Shown one piece after another: positions 3,572 to 42,860 of a DNA stretch of 42,860 bases (the first letter of the stretch is position 1; the number at the start of each line of letters is the position of its first letter). Source of the DNA: a virus; the IMG/VR virus record IMGVR_UViG_3300043446_003464, positions 1-42,860 of that record. One strand, 5' to 3'. The notes beneath the pieces are model-generated. The model worked only from the letters and a program-made list of their open reading frames with translations. It had not been told where the DNA came from and searched no databases. The translations under genes and the position numbers were made by a program.

Positions 3572-3793
3572 TCAGCGGACGGTGATGCGGCAGAAGTCGA
3601 TGCAATCGTAACGCTTGCCGGCGCTGATGTAGAGGGACGTGGCGTCGGCCTTGAACAGCGGGCGGTTGATCGCGGCAAACTTTGCCAGGTCCTTTGCCGT
3701 CACCTTGGTGATGCGCAGGCTGGTTGCGATGAACACGGTACGGCCGGCGTTCAGGACTTCGAGGATCTTGGCGAGCTTGTCGGCGGGGGCCAT
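3572..3793 (-). CDS. Hypothetical 73-aa phage protein
   Basis: Not recognised. AAGGAG lies six bases before the ATG at 3793, an ideal ribosome-binding site, and the start is about 25 bases downstream of promoter copy 5. The sequence alternates short helices and strands (KLAKILEVLNAGRTVFIATS, TSLYISAGKRYDCIDFCRITV). Confidence 0.7.
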   Translation of the reverse strand: MAPADKLAKILEVLNAGRTVFIATSLRITKVTAKDLAKFAAINRPLFKADATSLYISAGKRYDCIDFCRITVR

Positions 3794-3926: not shown

Positions 3927-3955
3927 TTGACCCTCATTCAGATTTAGTCTACAGT
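3927..3955 (+). promoter_or_regulatory. Candidate sigma70 promoter of the late operon
   Basis: Plus strand: TTGACC (3927-3932), a 17-bp AT-richer spacer, and TACAGT (3950-3955). Transcription would start near 3962, some 30 bases before the terminator at 3991. The spacer composition and hexamers are good for this GC-rich genome. The match is by eye only. Confidence 0.55.
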
Positions 3956-3990
3956 CTCCCCGTTGTCTCCGGTTCGACCAGCGAGCCTTC

Positions 3991-4017
3991 ATCCCGCTTC
4001 GGCGGGATTTTTTTTTG
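3991..4017 (+). terminator. Rho-independent terminator in the late-operon leader
   Basis: ATCCCGC-TTCG-GCGGGAT forms a 7-bp stem with a stable UUCG-type tetraloop, followed directly by a run of T residues. It works only for plus-strand transcription. No plus-strand gene lies between 915 and here, so it would stop RNA started at 3962 or read-through from the head gene before the operon at 4034. Confidence 0.85.
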
Positions 4018-4033
4018 TTGTAGACTCGCGCCC

Positions 4034-5311
4034 ATGATCCAGCGCGTCCATATCGTCACGACCGTCAACGCCCGCAACGTCTCCAAGACCGGCGGGACCT
4101 ACACGATCCGGGACGTTTGCGGCGCGGTGGACGGCATCGTGATGAACGGCATGCTGTACCCGGGCGACCAGCTTGCCAAGTCGGCGCCAACGCTCAACGG
4201 CAAGCCCGCGCCGGCCGGGCACCCGAAGAACCCCGACGGCCAATACATCAGCGCCGCCAACGGCGACGCCCTGCTGTCCAGCTACGTCGGCAGTGCGTGC
4301 CGCAACGCCCGCCACGTCGGCGGGCGCACCCTCGTGGACATCATAGTGAACGAGGCCCAGGCTCGCGCCATGCCCGACGGCGTGGCCATCGTCGAGCGCC
4401 TGGACGCCGCCATCGCGGGCACCAGCGTCGAGCCGATCCACGTGAGCACCGGCCTGCTGTGCGAGCCGATCACCGCCAATGGCACGAGCGGCGGCAAGGC
4501 GTATGAGCGCATCGCGACCAACATCCAGTACGACCACCTCGCCATCCTGCTGCACGAGCAGGGCGCCGGCACGCCGGCCGATGGTGTCGGCATGTGGCTC
4601 AATGCTGCCGGCCAGCCCGAGCAGGTCGAGACCGCCCGCATCGACACCACGGCGGAAGACAAGCGCTACGCCGGCCTGCTGGGTTGGGTGCGCAAGCTGC
4701 TGGGCAACACCAGCGAGCTGAGCCTGCGCGCTATCGAGGACGGCCTGGGCGCGTCGATGCCTTCCGGGGCGTGGCTCGTGGACGTGTACACTCGTTACGC
4801 CATCTGGCGCGATGAAGCGGGCACCTACTGGCGCCAGGACTACGCGGTTTCGTCCGAAGGCGTCGTGTCGTGGGCCGGAACGGCCGTCCAGGTCGAAGAA
4901 GTGAGCACTAACCAAGGAGTCGATCCTGTGAAAGAGCAAATCCTCGCGGCCCTGACCGCAGCCGGCGTGCAGACTGCGGGGCTCACCGATGCCGCGCTGC
5001 TGACCGCCTACAACGCCCTCGTGACCAAGCCGGTCGAGGACCGCCTCACCGCGGCCAATTCCAAGCTTGCGGCGGTCGAGCTGGCGGCCAACGCCGCGGC
5101 CGATGCCGAGCTGACCGCGCTGGCCACCGAGCTGTCCGTGAACACCTCGCTGACCGTCGCCGACTTCCGCGCCATGGGCCTGACCCGGCTGCGCGAGCTG
5201 AAAGCCGCGAGCAAGGCCGCCCCGGTGCTGGCCGGCAACAGCGGCGGTACCGGTGGAGCGGACCCGTACGCCACCTATGACCCGAACGAACACCTGAAGG
5301 AGGCCAAGTAA
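4034..5311 (+). CDS. Prohead protease fused to scaffold (DUF2213-like)
   Basis: A 425-aa capsid maturation protease with a C-terminal scaffold. Residues 1-180 match the DUF2213-type phage protease, including AGHPKN near residue 62, HVSTGLL at 136-142 and YDHLAIL at 166-172. Residues 299-425 are Ala-rich and coiled-coil-like, as expected of a scaffold removed after assembly. The gene lies just before the cement-like and major capsid genes. No Shine-Dalgarno is visible before the ATG; the 14 bases TGTAGACTCGCGCC precede it, as they do before 12747. The catalytic residues are not assigned with certainty. Confidence 0.8.
   Translation: MIQRVHIVTTVNARNVSKTGGTYTIRDVCGAVDGIVMNGMLYPGDQLAKSAPTLNGKPAPAGHPKNPDGQYISAANGDALLSSYVGSACRNARHVGGRTLVDIIVNEAQARAMPDGVAIVERLDAAIAGTSVEPIHVSTGLLCEPITANGTSGGKAYERIATNIQYDHLAILLHEQGAGTPADGVGMWLNAAGQPEQVETARIDTTAEDKRYAGLLGWVRKLLGNTSELSLRAIEDGLGASMPSGAWLVDVYTRYAIWRDEAGTYWRQDYAVSSEGVVSWAGTAVQVEEVSTNQGVDPVKEQILAALTAAGVQTAGLTDAALLTAYNALVTKPVEDRLTAANSKLAAVELAANAAADAELTALATELSVNTSLTVADFRAMGLTRLRELKAASKAAPVLAGNSGGTGGADPYATYDPNEHLKEAK
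4928..5311 (+). CDS. Nested in-frame scaffold protein, internal GTG start
   Basis: AAGGAG lies eight bases before an in-frame GTG at 4928, codon 299 of the protease gene. It would give a 127-aa product with the Ala-rich coiled-coil region only. This is the arrangement of lambda C and Nu3, where a separate scaffold is translated from within the protease gene. The ribosome-binding site is far better than the one in front of the full-length gene, which supports real use. Expression is inferred. Confidence 0.6.
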   Translation: MKEQILAALTAAGVQTAGLTDAALLTAYNALVTKPVEDRLTAANSKLAAVELAANAAADAELTALATELSVNTSLTVADFRAMGLTRLRELKAASKAAPVLAGNSGGTGGADPYATYDPNEHLKEAK

Positions 5312-9877: not shown

Positions 9878-12737
9878 AAAAGTCGGAGAGATCTACTACG
9901 ACGTCACGCTCGAAACCGGGCAGATGCTCGACGGGTCGCGCAAGGTACGTCGCGAGCTTGACGGGCTTACCACTGCGTTCACAGCAGCGGCGTCCGCCGT
10001 GGCCGGGCTGGCCGCGGCCATGTCGATCGCGAGTGTCATCCGGGATTCGGTCAACGCTGCCCGTGCCTACGAAAAGACCCTGGCCGACCTGAGCGCCATC
10101 ACCGGCGTGGCGGGTGAAGGGCTCGTGCGACTGAGCGATGAGGCAAAAGCGCTGGCCCGCAACAGCACCGCCAGCAGCGGCCAGGTTGTGGAGGCCATGA
10201 AGCTCATCGCGTCCGCGAAGCCTGAGTTGTTGAATACGGCCGGTGCGCTGACGGCGGTCACCAAAGAGGCGATCGCGTTGGCCGAGGCCTCCGGCATGCA
10301 GTTGCCAGCGGCGGCCGAGGCTGTCACGTTGGCCCTCAATCAGTTCGGTGTCGGGGCGGACCAGGCGGCCCGCTTCGTCAACGTCCTGGCGGCCGGTGCG
10401 AAGTTCGGCGCTTCGGAGATTGCCGATACCGCAATCGCGCTGAAAAACAGCGCTGTGTCAGCGGCGGCGGCGAAGGTGTCATTCGAGGAAACCAACGCCG
10501 CGCTGCAGGCGCTGGCGGCAGGCGGCATCAAGGGCGGCGAGGCGGGCACATCGCTCCGCAACGTGATCTTGAAGTTGGAGAACGACACCGACAAGCGACT
10601 GAAGCCGTCGATCGTGGGCTTGGCAGGTGCGCTCCAGGCGCTTGACGCGCAGAACCTGAGCAGCGCTGCGCTTACGAAGATGTTCGGCTTGGAGAACGTC
10701 AACGCGGCCCAAGCCCTGATTGGCTCAGCAGGCGCCATCAGGACGCTGACCGGCCAGCTCACCGGAACGAACACGGCGTACGAGCAGGCCGCGATCAACA
10801 CCGACACGTATGACGCGGCCATCAAGCGCATGAGCAGCTCGCTGGAGATGGCGGGGCAGGCCATCGGGAATCAGCTCCTGCCTTTCCTGCGCCAGGGCGC
10901 AGAGGCGGTGCAATCGCTGGCCAACAGTCTGTCCACCGGGTCGGAGGTCATGAGCAAGGCTATGACCGTCGTAGAGGTCGGTTCTGCGTTGCTGGCGGGC
11001 ATGCTGGCCGTGCGCTTGGTGTCGGCCGTGCAGGCGGTGATCGCGTCCTACACCGCCAGCGCCGTGGCCGCCAATGCCGCCAATGCCGCGGCTCTCATGC
11101 TCACCGGCACGACGGCATCGCTCACGGCTGCGCAAACAGCGCTATCTGTGGCCACCGGTGTGGCCGCCACAGCGGGGCGGGCATTCGGCGCGGTCATGGC
11201 GGGCCTTGGCGGCCCCATCGGCCTTGCCGTCGCCGCGCTGGTGACGATCGCCTGGAATTGGGATGTCATCACCGGCAAAGCCAACGACGCCGCGGCAACC
11301 TCAGAGCGAGCCGCGGCGCGCATTGCCGCGGCTCTGAAGAAGTCGAGCGAATCAGCCACCGCGGATCTGCAAGGGCAGCTTGTCGAAACACAGAAGGCAA
11401 TGGCGCTCATCGATCGTGAGCTTTCGATGCCGCGGCAGTTGCAGTCGGGCCGCGGCATGGGCGGCGGGCGCCCCCTGACCGACACGCGTATCACGGAGTT
11501 GAAAGAGAAGCGCGACGCACTGGTGAAGATCGCGGCCGACATCGAGAAGGCCATGTTCCGCGTGGCCGCTAGTGACGAAGGCGGCGGCATGGTCGGGCCG
11601 GCCGACACGAGCCCGAAGAAGCCTGTACGGGCCCCAGGTGCAGACGCTCCGGCCGCATCGAAGTTCGACGCCGAGGGCTACCTGGCCGGGCTGGAGAAGG
11701 CAACGCTCGAAGGCGCCGCCCGCGTGGACGCCATCGAGCGTGAGGCGTTGCGCAAGAACGCCGAGTTGCTTGAGGCGGGCAAGATCAGCCGTGCCCAGGC
11801 GGCCCAGGCCGTCAACCTCATCGAGCAGGAGGCCGCGGCCCAACGGCTGGAGCTGCAGACCAAGGCCGAGGACGAATTGCTGGCATCGCTGGCCCGGATG
11901 GAGCAGGCTGAGGCGGATTCGGCGAAGCGACGCGGCGAGCAGCAGGCCAAGGACTTGGCGATGGCCAGAGAGATCCAGCTCGCCGACGATCCGATCGGGC
12001 GCTTGCAGTTGGAGCTGCAGACCAAAAGCGACATGCTGACGGCCGCGGCCGAGAGGGACCGTGCGAACGAAGAGATTTACGCGGCGGCGCGCGTCGCGCT
12101 GGAGGAACACACCGCCTCGGCCATTGCCAGCATTCACGCCAACACGCTCGCGGGCTACTCCAGCAATCTCGATGCCGCGGCGGGTCTGGTTGAGAAGTTC
12201 GGGGGCAAGCAGAACGCGTTGTACAAGACCCTTTTCGCAGCATCCAAGGCGTTCGCCATCGCCGAGTCGATCATCAAGATCCAGCAGGGCATTGCCGGCG
12301 CTGCCGCGCTGCCGTTCCCAGCCAACATCCCCGCCATTGGCGCCGTTGTGGCGGCCACATCGGGGATCATCAGCACCATCAGCGGCACGAATTACGGCGG
12401 CGGCCGGCTCACCGGTGGGCCTGCCAGTGCTGGCAGCACGTACCGCATCAACGAGGCCGGCGCCCCGGAGATGTTTGTCGGTGCCAACGGCCGGCAGTAC
12501 ATGATGCCAACGCAGGCAGGCAACGTCGTGCCGGCCGACGGCCTGGGCGGGAGCAAGGCACCTACGATCATCATCCAGAACACGGGCACGCCGCAACGCG
12601 TCGAGTCGCAGAGCTACGACAGCGCCAGCAACACCGCCACCCTCGTCATGGCCGACCTGGTGGACCAGATCAGCAACAACAGCGGCCCGGTGTGGTCTGC
12701 GCTGACCAGCTCCAGCAACGTGCAGGGCCGGCTGTAG
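9870..12737 (+). CDS. Tail tape measure protein
   Basis: 955 aa, the longest structural gene. It sets tail length and passes out ahead of the DNA. Residues about 80-300 match the TP901-type phage tail domain (ALARNSTASSGQVVEAMK, ALNQFGVGADQAARFVNVLA, GGEAGTSLRNVILKLEND). Hydrophobic stretches near residues 30-50 and 370-460 may become membrane-inserted. The rest is Ala/Glu-rich helix. The C-terminus has ETYRINEAGAPEMFVG-like sequence, common in tape measures. It overlaps the chaperone by eight bases. Confidence 0.92.
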   Translation: MAEKVGEIYYDVTLETGQMLDGSRKVRRELDGLTTAFTAAASAVAGLAAAMSIASVIRDSVNAARAYEKTLADLSAITGVAGEGLVRLSDEAKALARNSTASSGQVVEAMKLIASAKPELLNTAGALTAVTKEAIALAEASGMQLPAAAEAVTLALNQFGVGADQAARFVNVLAAGAKFGASEIADTAIALKNSAVSAAAAKVSFEETNAALQALAAGGIKGGEAGTSLRNVILKLENDTDKRLKPSIVGLAGALQALDAQNLSSAALTKMFGLENVNAAQALIGSAGAIRTLTGQLTGTNTAYEQAAINTDTYDAAIKRMSSSLEMAGQAIGNQLLPFLRQGAEAVQSLANSLSTGSEVMSKAMTVVEVGSALLAGMLAVRLVSAVQAVIASYTASAVAANAANAAALMLTGTTASLTAAQTALSVATGVAATAGRAFGAVMAGLGGPIGLAVAALVTIAWNWDVITGKANDAAATSERAAARIAAALKKSSESATADLQGQLVETQKAMALIDRELSMPRQLQSGRGMGGGRPLTDTRITELKEKRDALVKIAADIEKAMFRVAASDEGGGMVGPADTSPKKPVRAPGADAPAASKFDAEGYLAGLEKATLEGAARVDAIEREALRKNAELLEAGKISRAQAAQAVNLIEQEAAAQRLELQTKAEDELLASLARMEQAEADSAKRRGEQQAKDLAMAREIQLADDPIGRLQLELQTKSDMLTAAAERDRANEEIYAAARVALEEHTASAIASIHANTLAGYSSNLDAAAGLVEKFGGKQNALYKTLFAASKAFAIAESIIKIQQGIAGAAALPFPANIPAIGAVVAATSGIISTISGTNYGGGRLTGGPASAGSTYRINEAGAPEMFVGANGRQYMMPTQAGNVVPADGLGGSKAPTIIIQNTGTPQRVESQSYDSASNTATLVMADLVDQISNNSGPVWSALTSSSNVQGRL

Positions 12738-12746
12738 ACTCGCGCC

Positions 12747-13220
12747 ATGGCCATCGCCTACCCGCTCCACATCCGCACGCTGCTGCGCACCGGCAAGAGC
12801 CGCACACAGCCGGCGCGGTTCAGCGTCGCAGAGCCGCGCCGCGGGTATGCCTACGTCAAGCCGATCGGGACCGACGTGCCGGTCTTCTGGGACATCGAGT
12901 TCCGCTTCACGACCGACGAAGCGATCGTGTTCCGCTTGTGGTTCGACGAGCTTCTCAATGGCGGGGTGGACGAGTTCACCTTGCCGATCCGCACCGAGTT
13001 CGGCATCGTCACCCACACTTGCCGGTTCTTGCCAGATGGGCTGCTGCCGGTGACCGAGGTCGGCCAGACGTGGGGCTACAAAGCGACGATAATGGCCCGC
13101 GCACTGGTCACGCCAGCCGGCTACGCTGAGGCAGCCAGCGTCATAGTCGGCTTGCCCGACTGGCGGGCCTGGATGCTGGCGCTTGACCGGGGCGTCACGC
13201 AAGAGATGCCGGGGGCCTGA
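12747..13220 (+). CDS. Minor tail protein, lambda M position
   Basis: 157 aa, first gene after the tape measure, so it is a tail-tip component by order. It has a beta-rich middle (VPVFWDIEFRFTTDEAIVFRLWFDELLNGG). No Shine-Dalgarno lies before the ATG; the same 14-base sequence as before 4034, containing TAGACT, ends right at it. The TAG in that sequence is the tape measure stop. Confidence 0.65.
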   Translation: MAIAYPLHIRTLLRTGKSRTQPARFSVAEPRRGYAYVKPIGTDVPVFWDIEFRFTTDEAIVFRLWFDELLNGGVDEFTLPIRTEFGIVTHTCRFLPDGLLPVTEVGQTWGYKATIMARALVTPAGYAEAASVIVGLPDWRAWMLALDRGVTQEMPGA

Positions 13221-35780: not shown

Positions 35781-36184
35781 CCCGCAAGAGCTGCCGACGC
35801 AAGTACATCCCTGCCATGCTGACGGCCGCCCAGGTGCGCGACTTGGACACGGCGCACCTACAGACGCTCGACGACATCGCCCGCGGGCTGGGCACTGAAG
35901 CGCTGCTGATGCAGTGGGCCGGCGCGGTGGCCACGTGGGGGCATGTGGCGCGCATGCGCGGTGAGGGCGTACCGGAGATGGCGGAACAAGCGACCGTTGT
36001 GGCCGGCATGCAGGAGCGGTTCGCGCGCACCGGGCGGGTGGGTTTCTCGGGCTTGGAGTACCAGACGGCCCGCCGCGGCGTGGCGGTCATGAACGCCCTC
36101 GCCGAGGTGACCGACCTTGCGACCGCGAAGCGCGCGGCGGATCTGGCCGAGCTTGACTTGACACACACGTCAACGGCATACTGA
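35777..36184 (+). CDS. Hypothetical 135-aa phage protein
   Basis: Starts VTRKSCRRKYIP, a basic N-terminus of the KRKYRPK type frequent in phage accessory proteins, then helical segments. GTG start overlaps the previous stop. Its end overlaps the class 2 promoter of queE (stop at 36182-36184). Not recognised. Confidence 0.65.
   Translation: MTRKSCRRKYIPAMLTAAQVRDLDTAHLQTLDDIARGLGTEALLMQWAGAVATWGHVARMRGEGVPEMAEQATVVAGMQERFARTGRVGFSGLEYQTARRGVAVMNALAEVTDLATAKRAADLAELDLTHTSTAY
36153..36182 (+). promoter_or_regulatory. Class 2 promoter-operator, copy c, before queE
   Basis: Plus strand: -35 TTGACT (36153-36158), 18-bp spacer, -10 CATACT (36177-36182). The dyad TTGAC-N6-GTCAA (36158-36173) fills the spacer. 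Seven bases separate the -10 from the queE ATG, so the ATG is at or next to +1. Very similar to copy d over about 38 bases. Confidence 0.7.
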
Positions 36185-36189
36185 CCGAC

Positions 36190-36825
36190 ATGACTTACGC
36201 AATCAAGGAAATCTTCTACACCCTGCAGGGCGAGGGCATACAGGCCGGTCGGCCTGCGGTGTTCTGCCGATTTGCCGGCTGCAACCTCTGGAGCGGCCGC
36301 GAGGCCGACCGGGGCCAGGCGGTCTGCCGCTTCTGCGACACCGACTTCGTGGGCACCGACGGTACGCTGGGCGGCAAGTACGCCACGGCCGAGACCCTGG
36401 CCGACCGCATCCACGCTTGCTGGCCGGCGCCCGGCCAGGGCCGTCCCTTCACCGTGCTCACCGGCGGCGAGCCGCTGCTGCAGGTGGATGCCGCGCTCAT
36501 CGATGCCCTGCATGCGCGCGGCCTGCAGGTGGCGGTGGAAACCAACGGCACGCTGGAGGCCGCGCCGGGGCTGGACTGGATCTGTGTCAGCCCCAAGGCC
36601 GGCTCGACCATGAAGCTGCGCCGCGGCCACGAACTGAAAGTGGTGGTGCCGCAAGCAGGCCTGGCGCTGGACGAACTGGCGGCGCTGCCCTTCGAGCACC
36701 GCCTGCTGCAGCCCATGGACGGCCTGCTGGCCAAAGACAACACCCGACTGGCCGTGCAGATGTGCCTAGCCGACCCGCGTTGGCGCCTGAGCCTGCAGAC
36801 GCACAAGGTGATCGGCATCCGATGA
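36190..36825 (+). CDS. queE: 7-carboxy-7-deazaguanine synthase QueE
   Basis: 211 aa radical-SAM enzyme that rearranges 6-carboxytetrahydropterin to 7-carboxy-7-deazaguanine (CDG), third step of the preQ0 pathway. Cys31, Cys46 and Cys49 form the Cx14CxxC cluster site, with the insertion between the first two known from Burkholderia QueE. FYTLQGEG at 9-16 and LTGGEPLLQ follow the family; QTHKVIGIR ends it. It is probably leaderless (see the promoter at 36153). ATGA overlap with queD. Phage QueE enzymes supply DNA-base modification or lower host queuosine synthesis. Confidence 0.92.
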   Translation: MTYAIKEIFYTLQGEGIQAGRPAVFCRFAGCNLWSGREADRGQAVCRFCDTDFVGTDGTLGGKYATAETLADRIHACWPAPGQGRPFTVLTGGEPLLQVDAALIDALHARGLQVAVETNGTLEAAPGLDWICVSPKAGSTMKLRRGHELKVVVPQAGLALDELAALPFEHRLLQPMDGLLAKDNTRLAVQMCLADPRWRLSLQTHKVIGIR

Positions 36826-37184
36826 ACTACGAACTCACGCAGCGCTTCTACTTCGAAGCCGCCCACACGCTGCAGCGCCAGGTGGACGTGGAGCCCAGCC
36901 GGCGCATCCACGGCCACACCTACCTGGCCGAGGTGGCCATCTCCGGCACGCCCGACCCCACCACCGGCATGGTGGCGGACCTGGCGCACCTGCGCCGCGC
37001 CATCGACACGCTGCGCGACCGACTCGACCACCGTCTACTGGACGAGGTGCCCGGCCTGGGCCCGGCCACGCTGGAAAACCTGTGCGCCTTCATCGCCCGC
37101 GCGCTGGGCGATGAAGGCTGGAACCTGGCCCAGGTGGTGGTCCGACGCGAGGCCAGCGGGGATGCCTGCAGGATCTTCCCTTGA
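36822..37184 (+). CDS. queD: 6-carboxytetrahydropterin synthase QueD
   Basis: 120 aa member of the PTPS/QueD family that converts dihydroneopterin triphosphate to 6-carboxytetrahydropterin. FEAAHTLQR and RIHGHTYLAEV give zinc ligands His15, His30 and His32; LDHRLLDEV and VVRREASG keep the family's later motifs. The catalytic Cys of E. coli QueD (C-G-R-L-H-G-H) is Ser26 or Ser27-type here (S-R-R-I-H-G-H). Whether this variant is active or has a substituted nucleophile is unclear. Coupled with queE (ATGA) and dpdA. Confidence 0.88.
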   Translation: MNYELTQRFYFEAAHTLQRQVDVEPSRRIHGHTYLAEVAISGTPDPTTGMVADLAHLRRAIDTLRDRLDHRLLDEVPGLGPATLENLCAFIARALGDEGWNLAQVVVRREASGDACRIFP

Positions 37185-37894
37185 TCCACTATCACGGGTT
37201 ACCGATCACGCCAGAGACCGCGGCCGTTCGTGTACTCACCTCCGGGCACGGGTTTGTTTCTTTTTCTGAGCCTCGCAATCTCGGGCTTGCCGCATCGGTT
37301 TGCCAGTCATTCGCTCTGGACAACGGGGCGTTTCCCGCTTGGAAAAGCGGGAAGCCAATATCGGATTGGGGGGCTTATTACGAGTGGGCCGAAGAAGCCA
37401 GGTTAGTCCCTTCTTGCGACTTCGCAGTAATACCAGACGTGATAGACGGAACCGAAAAGGAAAACGATAAGCTGATTGACGAGTGGCCTTTACCTCACTG
37501 GTTCGGGGCCCCGGTCTGGCATATGCACGAAGGATTCGAGCGGTTGATTCGTCTCGCGGACTCTTTTCCGCGTATATGCCTAGGAAGTTCAGGCGAATTC
37601 GCGAAGGTCGGTTCAAGGCCTTGGTGGGAAAGAATAGAAGTCGCAATGCTGCTCGTTTGCGACTCTATCGGCAGGCCCCGCGTAAAAATGCACGGGTTGC
37701 GAATGCTCAATCCTTCGATATTCACACGCTTGCCATTGTCAAGCGCCGACAGCACGAACATAGGCAGAAATATCGGTATAGACAAAGCGTGGAAAGGGTC
37801 ATACCCGCCACCGACAAAAGAGGCCAGAGCCGATGTAATGCGCTCCCGCATAGAGTCGCACAATTCCCCGGCCCGGTGGCCTTTTGGAACTTGA
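37181..37894 (+). CDS. dpdA: DpdA-like TGT-fold transglycosylase (DNA 7-deazaguanine insertion)
   Basis: 237 aa. DNGAF (Asp47) and SADSTNIGRN (Asp190) take the places of the two catalytic aspartates of tRNA-guanine transglycosylases (DSGGF and the later nucleophile Asp). Other conserved pieces: FAVIPDVIDG, HMHEGFERL, LGSSGEFAKVG, HGLRML. Short TGT-like proteins of phages with this pattern are called DpdA and exchange guanine in DNA for a 7-deazaguanine. Next to queE-queD this role is likely; the exact base is not predictable. The DNA is somewhat poorer in GC than its neighbours. ATG overlaps the queD stop. Confidence 0.75.
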   Translation: MIHYHGLPITPETAAVRVLTSGHGFVSFSEPRNLGLAASVCQSFALDNGAFPAWKSGKPISDWGAYYEWAEEARLVPSCDFAVIPDVIDGTEKENDKLIDEWPLPHWFGAPVWHMHEGFERLIRLADSFPRICLGSSGEFAKVGSRPWWERIEVAMLLVCDSIGRPRVKMHGLRMLNPSIFTRLPLSSADSTNIGRNIGIDKAWKGSYPPPTKEARADVMRSRIESHNSPARWPFGT

Positions 37895-37920
37895 CTTGAC
37901 ACACGCGTCAACTGCATAAT
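37891..37920 (+). promoter_or_regulatory. Class 2 promoter-operator, copy d
   Basis: Plus strand: -35 TTGACT (37891-37896), 18-bp spacer with dyad TTGAC-N6-GTCAA (37896-37911), -10 CATAAT (37915-37920). The ATG at 37928 lies seven bases after the -10. The ATG at 37919 is inside the -10 and is not used. Confidence 0.7.
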
Positions 37921-37927
37921 GACCGTT

Positions 37928-38230
37928 ATGAGCAAACTCGAAGCGCGCGCCCGCGCCGCACAAATTCTCGCCGCTGCAGTCGAGGCGGCCAGGGACCACG
38001 GGTACACACGCTTGACGCGCGAGCAAGTGGCCGCACGCATCGGCGTCGCGCCGTCCCTCATCCCGCACTACATGGGGACCATGGCGCAGCTCAGGCGGCG
38101 CATCATGCGCGAGGCGGTGCGGCTCGAATGCCTGCCCGTCATCGCCCAGGGCCTTGCGGTGCGCGACCCGCACGCCCTGGGCGCGCCGGCCGACCTGCGT
38201 CAACGGGCCGCCCGGCACCTCGCGCAATGA
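37928..38230 (+). CDS. TetR-like helix-turn-helix regulator
   Basis: 100 aa. ILAAAVEAARDHGYTRLTREQVAARIGVAPSLIPHYMGT contains the TetR_N type three-helix DNA-binding domain (helix-turn-helix REQVAARIGVAPSLIPHYMG). It lacks the long ligand-binding domain of full TetR proteins, so it is a bare DNA-binding unit. Its start is probably leaderless and sits directly at a class 2 operator, which makes self-regulation and control of the class 2 promoters a good guess. Coupled with the primase-helicase. Confidence 0.75.
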   Translation: MSKLEARARAAQILAAAVEAARDHGYTRLTREQVAARIGVAPSLIPHYMGTMAQLRRRIMREAVRLECLPVIAQGLAVRDPHALGAPADLRQRAARHLAQ

Positions 38231-42497: not shown

Positions 42498-42860
42498 GCC
42501 ACGCTCCAGCCGGCCAGCTCGGCACGCACCTTTGCATACGCCAGCATCGCGCGTTGCTCCGGGCCGTCGGCGTACTCGCTGTGCTCCGCTGCCTCCAGGC
42601 TCATCCATTGGCAGCCCGCGCCGATGTGTGCGACGCCTTTCACGGCCGCAATGCACACGCGGTAGCCTGCGGCTGTGCCAAGATCGATCGCATTTTCGGC
42701 GCCCTCGCCGATGCTGGCGCCCTCGCCGATGCTGGCGCCCTCGCCGATGCTGGCGCCCTTGCCGATGCTGGCGCCCTCGCCGATGCTGGCGCCCTCGCCG
42801 ATGCGGGCGCGGTCGCCGATGCGGGCGTACGCGCCGATGCGGGCGTACGCGCCGATGCCG
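42494..42860 (-). CDS. Hexapeptide-repeat left-handed beta-helix protein (5' part outside window)
   Basis: The visible 121 codons read GIGAYA, RIGAYA, RIGDRA, RIGEGA, SIGEGA, SIGKGA, then SIGEGA three times, that is nine hexapeptides of the x-I-G-x-x-A type. Three hexapeptides make one turn of a left-handed beta-helix, so at least three turns are present. A 60-residue C-terminal domain follows (VCIAAVKGVAHIGAGCQWM), resembling the tail domain of other phage hexapeptide proteins. The start codon lies past 42860. Function unknown; possibly an acyltransferase-like or structural protein. Confidence 0.75.
   Translation of the reverse strand, partial: GIGAYARIGAYARIGDRARIGEGASIGEGASIGKGASIGEGASIGEGASIGEGAENAIDLGTAAGYRVCIAAVKGVAHIGAGCQWMSLEAAEHSEYADGPEQRAMLAYAKVRAELAGWSVA
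42698..42859. repeat. 18-bp tandem repeat, nine units, continuing past the window
   Basis: Unit GGCGCCCTCGCCGATGCT and near variants, exact period 18 with no spacers. Units 1-3 and 5 are identical, unit 4 differs by one base, unit 6 by one, and 7-9 diverge more. In frame on the minus strand it encodes hexapeptides, so the repeat is coding, not a CRISPR array. Confidence 0.9.

Follow-up and report, generated by a model that had tools for sequence, protein, structure and literature searches.

What is the role of a promoter that is followed at once by a terminator, directly before the first gene of a structural operon? Such an arrangement is seen in the window (the whole stretch of DNA analysed, a phage record of 42,860 bases) in front of a gene encoding a head maturation protease-like protein. 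The initial annotation had described it as a leader producing a short RNA of about 55 nt and had likened it to Q-dependent pR'-tR' control in phage lambda. Comparison with related phages suggests that the region 3927-4017 is most likely a self-contained small RNA (sRNA) gene with its own promoter and its own terminator. The relevant features are as follows.

3927..3955, plus strand: candidate sRNA promoter TTGACC-N17-TACAGT; L029 keeps this upstream region, L002, L003 and L004 have other TAnnnT -10s
3962..4016, plus strand: predicted small RNA gene of about 55 nt, conserved from 3962 on; its covariance model matches distant loci; no Rfam match
3962..3970, plus strand: seed GUUGUCUCC, unpaired and 5'-terminal; its reverse complement GGAGACAAC is a consensus Burkholderiales ribosome-binding site (RBS)
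3971..3987, plus strand: hairpin 1, GGTTCG-ACCAG-CGAGCC; fold kept, sequence different in L003/L029 and the freshwater clade
3991..4016, plus strand: candidate intrinsic terminator ATCCCGC-TTCG-GCGGGAT and T8; stem changes compensated in relatives
4019..4033, plus strand: promoter-like element TGTAGACTCGCGCCC of the protease gene; -10 TAGACT ends 7 nt before the ATG
4034..5311, plus strand: head maturation protease-like protein (PHROG 760), with which the structural operon begins
12733..12746, plus strand: the element again, as TGTAGACTCGCGCC, immediately in front of the ATG of structural gene 12747-13220 (PHROG 384)

The candidate promoter consists of TTGACC (3927-3932), a spacer of 17 nucleotides and TACAGT (3950-3955), with the RNA start predicted at 3962. 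It agrees with the consensus at 9 of 12 positions. Sites of this pattern occurred six times in 20 kb, compared with 3.0 +/- 1.9 in shuffled sequences, and the pattern taken alone is weak evidence. The candidate terminator hairpin (3991-4008) has a UUCG loop and is followed by a T-tract at 4009-4016 (8-9 T) ending 16-17 nt before the protease ATG. Its T run is the longest among the terminator-like sites in our scans. Overall, the scan did not find more terminators than expected (8 against 13.3), and thus the evidence for this site lies in its own quality and its conservation.

Relatives were identified by a protease search of IMG/VR; the first set came from this search alone, and some members were found by the seed motif. 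The close relatives (L002-L004, later L029) have 80-91% identity in the best segment, and the distant ones (L006-L022) 52-58%, the proteases of a freshwater clade being at 52-57%. The sRNA element is carried by about 20 distinct sequences, in one copy each and in the same genomic slot. They fall into three lineages: the window type, the freshwater clade, and L055. In all window-type phages and in the freshwater clade the protease gene is preceded by GTTGTCTCC, a small hairpin, a terminator hairpin and a T-tract. In the five window-type phages the identity sets in abruptly at position 3962, where the G of GTTGTCTCC is the predicted +1. The promoters before it differ among these phages, but four of them have a TAnnnT hexamer with its end 6 nt before +1. 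The terminator hairpin with its T-tract is kept in all five. This conservation is strong evidence for the predicted promoter-terminator pair. The start near 3962, the UUCG-loop terminator and the short RNA between them, all proposed in the initial annotation, are thus well supported.

GTTGTCTCC is exact in all carriers except L055 (TGTCTCC) and L017 (GTCTCC), where the seed of the RNA is shortened to UGUCUCC and GUCUCC, respectively. Folding of the predicted RNA (about 3962-4016) gives two hairpins and leaves the 5' end free (-20.5 kcal/mol, z -2.4). The hairpin sequences vary between phages and the fold is retained with covariation, hairpin 1 being weak or absent in L055. In the two helices of the freshwater clade RNAs 95.3% of cells are paired and six pairs have changed on both sides; this covariation was matched in none of 500 shuffles, and no slid register comes near it. 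A joint covariance model places the element on the rightward strand and retrieves the window (E 2.5e-9), though the window was one of its training sequences. It also adds L055, from outside the training set (E 2e-7). The L055 element includes both a promoter and a terminator, as well as TGTCTCC and a 5' hairpin whose AGGGG loop sits on a different stem. With a model built from the freshwater clade alone the window is only marginal (E 0.83). The freshwater RNAs bear an extra 5' hairpin, also with the AGGGG loop, which could mask the seed. They contain a candidate pseudoknot between this loop and the seed, AGGGG with CUCCU, both sides of which are invariant.

Searches beyond this group were negative. 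No Rfam covariance model matched the window or its relatives at the gathering threshold, and a megablast search of phage records found nothing. A wider scan with a DNA pattern gave no members outside this phage type among the matches listed. The INPHARED relatives of the protease (35-41% identity) have no conserved RNA in the same gap, just unrelated genes or another terminator. Matches in L121 and L127 were rejected as real RBSs of other genes, and covariance-model hits in L070, L097, L098, L041 and L039 were left out of the count, as the seed is absent there.

The position of the element relative to the neighbouring genes is variable. In L011, L015, L066 and L090 the terminator is immediately followed by leftward ORFs, with the protease gene 0.9-2 kb beyond. 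An insertion of about 430-500 bases separates the RNA from the protease gene in L009, L010, L012 and L019-L022. On the other side, the distance from the RNA to the upstream head gene of the window is about 3 kb, occupied by leftward ORFs. Thus the element is not tied to either neighbour.

Other features of this region deserve mention. The insert in L022 (5560-5960), also present in L009, L010 and L012, is a GC-rich stretch of about 400 bases lying between the sRNA terminator and the protease promoter, with no evident conserved ORF, and is preceded by its own GTAGCAT element. Possibly it is a larger structured RNA; the L022 and L009 sequences have no Rfam match. The same pre-protease slot contains tRNA-like sequences in L039 (around 4811-4890) and, upstream of the protease, in L094 and L095. 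In L022 (2958-4874) and L011 (2819-4723) the head morphogenesis gene is interrupted; the insertion is intein-like, has an antisense ORF, and is missing from L066.

The protease gene appears to have a start signal of its own. After the terminator the window contains TGTAGACTCGCGCC immediately followed by ATG, and the identical 14-mer occurs once more, at 12733. No Shine-Dalgarno site was found before the protease ATG at 4034. In the close relatives (L002-L004, L029) the corresponding element is TATATTCGCGCCC. In the wider family YTCCCTAGCAT-like motifs precede the protease gene in 54 of 65 distinct upstream regions, compared with 3.3% of random positions, and 222 copies lie on the late strand versus 8 on the other. 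The motif stands anywhere between about 8 and about 40 nt before the ATG, with a Shine-Dalgarno-like stretch in the longer cases. It therefore behaves as a promoter (-10 TAnnnT) and not as a translation signal, and we infer that these elements are promoters. A -10 followed by ATG 6-8 nt later is a known layout of leaderless genes (PMC12340547, PMC3160421). The structural genes probably start at this separate post-terminator promoter, giving a leaderless mRNA that lacks a Shine-Dalgarno site.

The conserved seed would fit translation starts of the likely host. GGAGACAAC is the reverse complement of the invariant 9-mer GUUGUCUCC. Related prophages, from which the sRNA is absent, reside in Rhodoferax, Comamonas, Pseudorhodoferax, Pseudacidovorax and Roseateles, and the host of the window phage presumably also belongs to the Burkholderiales. 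In seven host genomes the pattern GGAGACAACN0-5ATG has 135 sites, whereas the reversed control has 2; the total numbers of occurrences of GGAGACAAC and of its reversed control are 236 and 57. The corresponding median for 59 further genomes of the phylum is about one GGAGACAACN0-5ATG site per genome. Independently of gene-start calls, all 9-mers in 2.4 Mb from four host genomes were ranked by closeness to ATG: GGAGACAAC is sixth of 137,924, and first among 638 GGAGNNNNN. The leading 9-mers are AGGAGACAA and AAGGAGACA, and therefore the consensus host RBS is AGGAGACAAC-like. Within the window RNA, nearness to host ATGs is seen for the 8-mers of the seed and for no other part. A perfect seed duplex has a free energy of -15.4 kcal/mol.

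There are no perfect seed targets within the window. The best imperfect ones that look like real RBSs, those of the leftward genes at 3793 and 25335 (AGGAGCGCAACATG and CGGAGCGCAACATG, respectively), have about -11 kcal/mol, near the 1% background level, and we make no claim for them. Avoidance of GGAGAC RBSs by the phage is not significant (0 seen, about 2-3 expected).

As expected of a trans-acting sRNA, the locus has, at the sequence level, its own promoter and intrinsic terminator with no dependence on an ORF, a conserved unpaired seed in a conserved fold, and complementary sites at translation starts in seven Burkholderiales genomes, the order to which the window host is assigned by inference. 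We consider it somewhat more probable than otherwise that this is an autonomous sRNA gene of the phage, with an anti-RBS seed that pairs with translation starts of host (or phage) mRNAs. Four other readings of the locus have to be weighed against this one.

In the reading suggested by the initial annotation, polymerase starting at this promoter would stop at 4016 until a Q-like antiterminator permits reading into the structural operon. The lambda pR'-tR' leader (6S RNA) under Q is indeed alike, with a promoter, then a terminator, and a short RNA before the late genes, and here too a strong terminator stands directly before the operon. However, in the window a promoter-like element belonging to the late operon itself follows the terminator and is conserved in relatives, and leftward ORFs separate the RNA from the protease gene in four of them (see above). 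Loading of Q needs a -10-like pause hexamer in the initial transcribed region (PMC6606751), and none (with A2 and T6) occurs at positions +1 to +20 of the transcript. The search for Q proteins, proposed together with this reading, found neither PF06530 nor PF03589, the controls having worked; PF06323 was not found either, but its control was silent, and Q proteins are diverse. Antitermination control of the structural operon is unnecessary and, on these comparisons, not supported, and we hold it improbable. Still less can be said for a cis-acting antitermination or anti-pausing RNA like HK022 put, which would account for two adjacent hairpins near a promoter within about 55-70 nt. The put RNAs stand before distant terminators, and their hairpins are not terminators (PMC9378689), whereas the second hairpin of the window RNA is a U-tailed terminator, so that the transcript should end there. 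This we regard as very improbable.

Alternatively, the terminator might act only as an insulator, stopping upstream transcription where accessory genes keep inserting, with the short RNA a functionless by-product. The slot is indeed rich in varied accessory genes, and unrelated terminators occur there in L025, L039 and L052. This explanation, which we consider unlikely, leaves unaccounted for the conserved unpaired GUUGUCUCC, the maintained hairpin 1 and the match with the host RBS consensus. That same match underlies another explanation, that the 9-mer is kept as a minus-strand RBS (GGAGACAAC, a typical host RBS) of a short leftward gene, the hairpins and T-tract being an ordinary rightward terminator. 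Most members of the freshwater clade read GGAGACAAC-AACG-ATG-AACCGG at this place, like a real gene start. However, none of the five window-type phages has a start codon within 15 nt, nor do L017 and L055 have a start at the site; in L009 the start is GTG and a stop follows after six codons, and in L018 and L066 the length differs by 1 nt. The T-tract is on the plus strand only, the rightward hairpins persist, and hairpin 1 is maintained by changes on both sides. A rightward RNA is thus favoured over a minus-strand RBS; the latter, although quite unlikely, is a real doubt.

The sRNA reading can be compared with known systems. Some bacterial sRNAs with CU-rich anti-Shine-Dalgarno motifs present an unpaired CUCC-containing seed against Shine-Dalgarno sequences. 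The window RNA differs in being phage-borne and in having a 9-nt seed that runs past the Shine-Dalgarno sequence into the host-typical ACAAC. The c4 RNA of phages P1 and P7 is likewise small, and is regarded as preventing translation initiation through base pairing. Its target is a partner in its own operon, whereas the window RNA has no perfect partner in the window. In PMC12197685 c4 is named as an antisense RNA. DicF, StxS, AsxR and svsR (PMC12197685, PMC12803456, PMC10448788) are, like the window RNA, short phage RNAs with a U-tailed intrinsic terminator, and act by base pairing, as would be expected of the window RNA. No sequence or Rfam relation to them was found; the window RNA is encoded in the region of the head genes and has a promoter of its own, and its seed fits the consensus host RBS and not one mRNA.

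Several other repeated or conserved elements were noted. Eight intergenic repeats in the window (at 1579, 1976, 2522, 3149, 3798, 25064, 25352 and 41368) look like minus-strand promoters before leftward genes. Most have -35 TTGC(A/C), an inverted repeat ATAGCGCC-N5-GGCGCTAT in the spacer, and -10 TATAGT or TAAAGT; they are probably under the control of one repressor. Two of them, at 1592 and 1989, would start leaderless ORFs. A second repeated promoter/operator, TTGACTTGACACACNCGTCAACNGCATANTGACCG, at 36149-36193 and 37887-37931, lies directly before a QueE-like gene (36190) and a gene for a TetR-N protein (37919 or 37928), which may be its regulator. The QueE-like gene (36190-36825) and a queuine tRNA-ribosyltransferase-like gene (37181-37894) make 7-deazaguanine DNA modification possible. 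The right end of the record (42698-42859) consists of an 18-base tandem repeat, GGCGCCCTCGCCGATGCT. In L030 (3396-3490) and L042 (2328-2420) a conserved stretch GGATAGGG...CCCCGAARAGCCTTAAGCAAGCCTGCCGCC, after a TCCCTAGCAT element and before an ORF, is a candidate second RNA element.

Returning to the sRNA, a conserved element, its covarying fold, its autonomy from the protease gene and its match with host RBSs can be read directly from the genomes compared. The RNA would start at its own promoter near 3962 and end at its own terminator at 4016, both ends and transcription itself being predicted. Its build would be that of a base-pairing sRNA, probably bound by Hfq: the unpaired seed GUUGUCUCC stands at the 5' end, a single small hairpin comes next, and a U-tailed terminator hairpin completes the molecule. 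Being the exact antisense of GGAGACAAC, the seed would most likely pair with RBSs in mRNAs from the host, or from the phage where similar sites occur, and so may lower the translation of chosen messages during infection. A broad translation shut-off, which the leaderless structural operon would escape by lacking such an RBS, has in our opinion little chance of being the function of the family.

Discovery of phage small RNAs by sequence analysis alone is rare, and lambdoid phages of enterobacteria are the source of most of those known. If the proposed reading is true, environmental Burkholderiales phages would have a conserved sRNA family, and its predicted mechanism could be tested by a reporter. 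Its seed, corresponding to the consensus RBS of the host order, would give the virus an unusually general route onto host translation.
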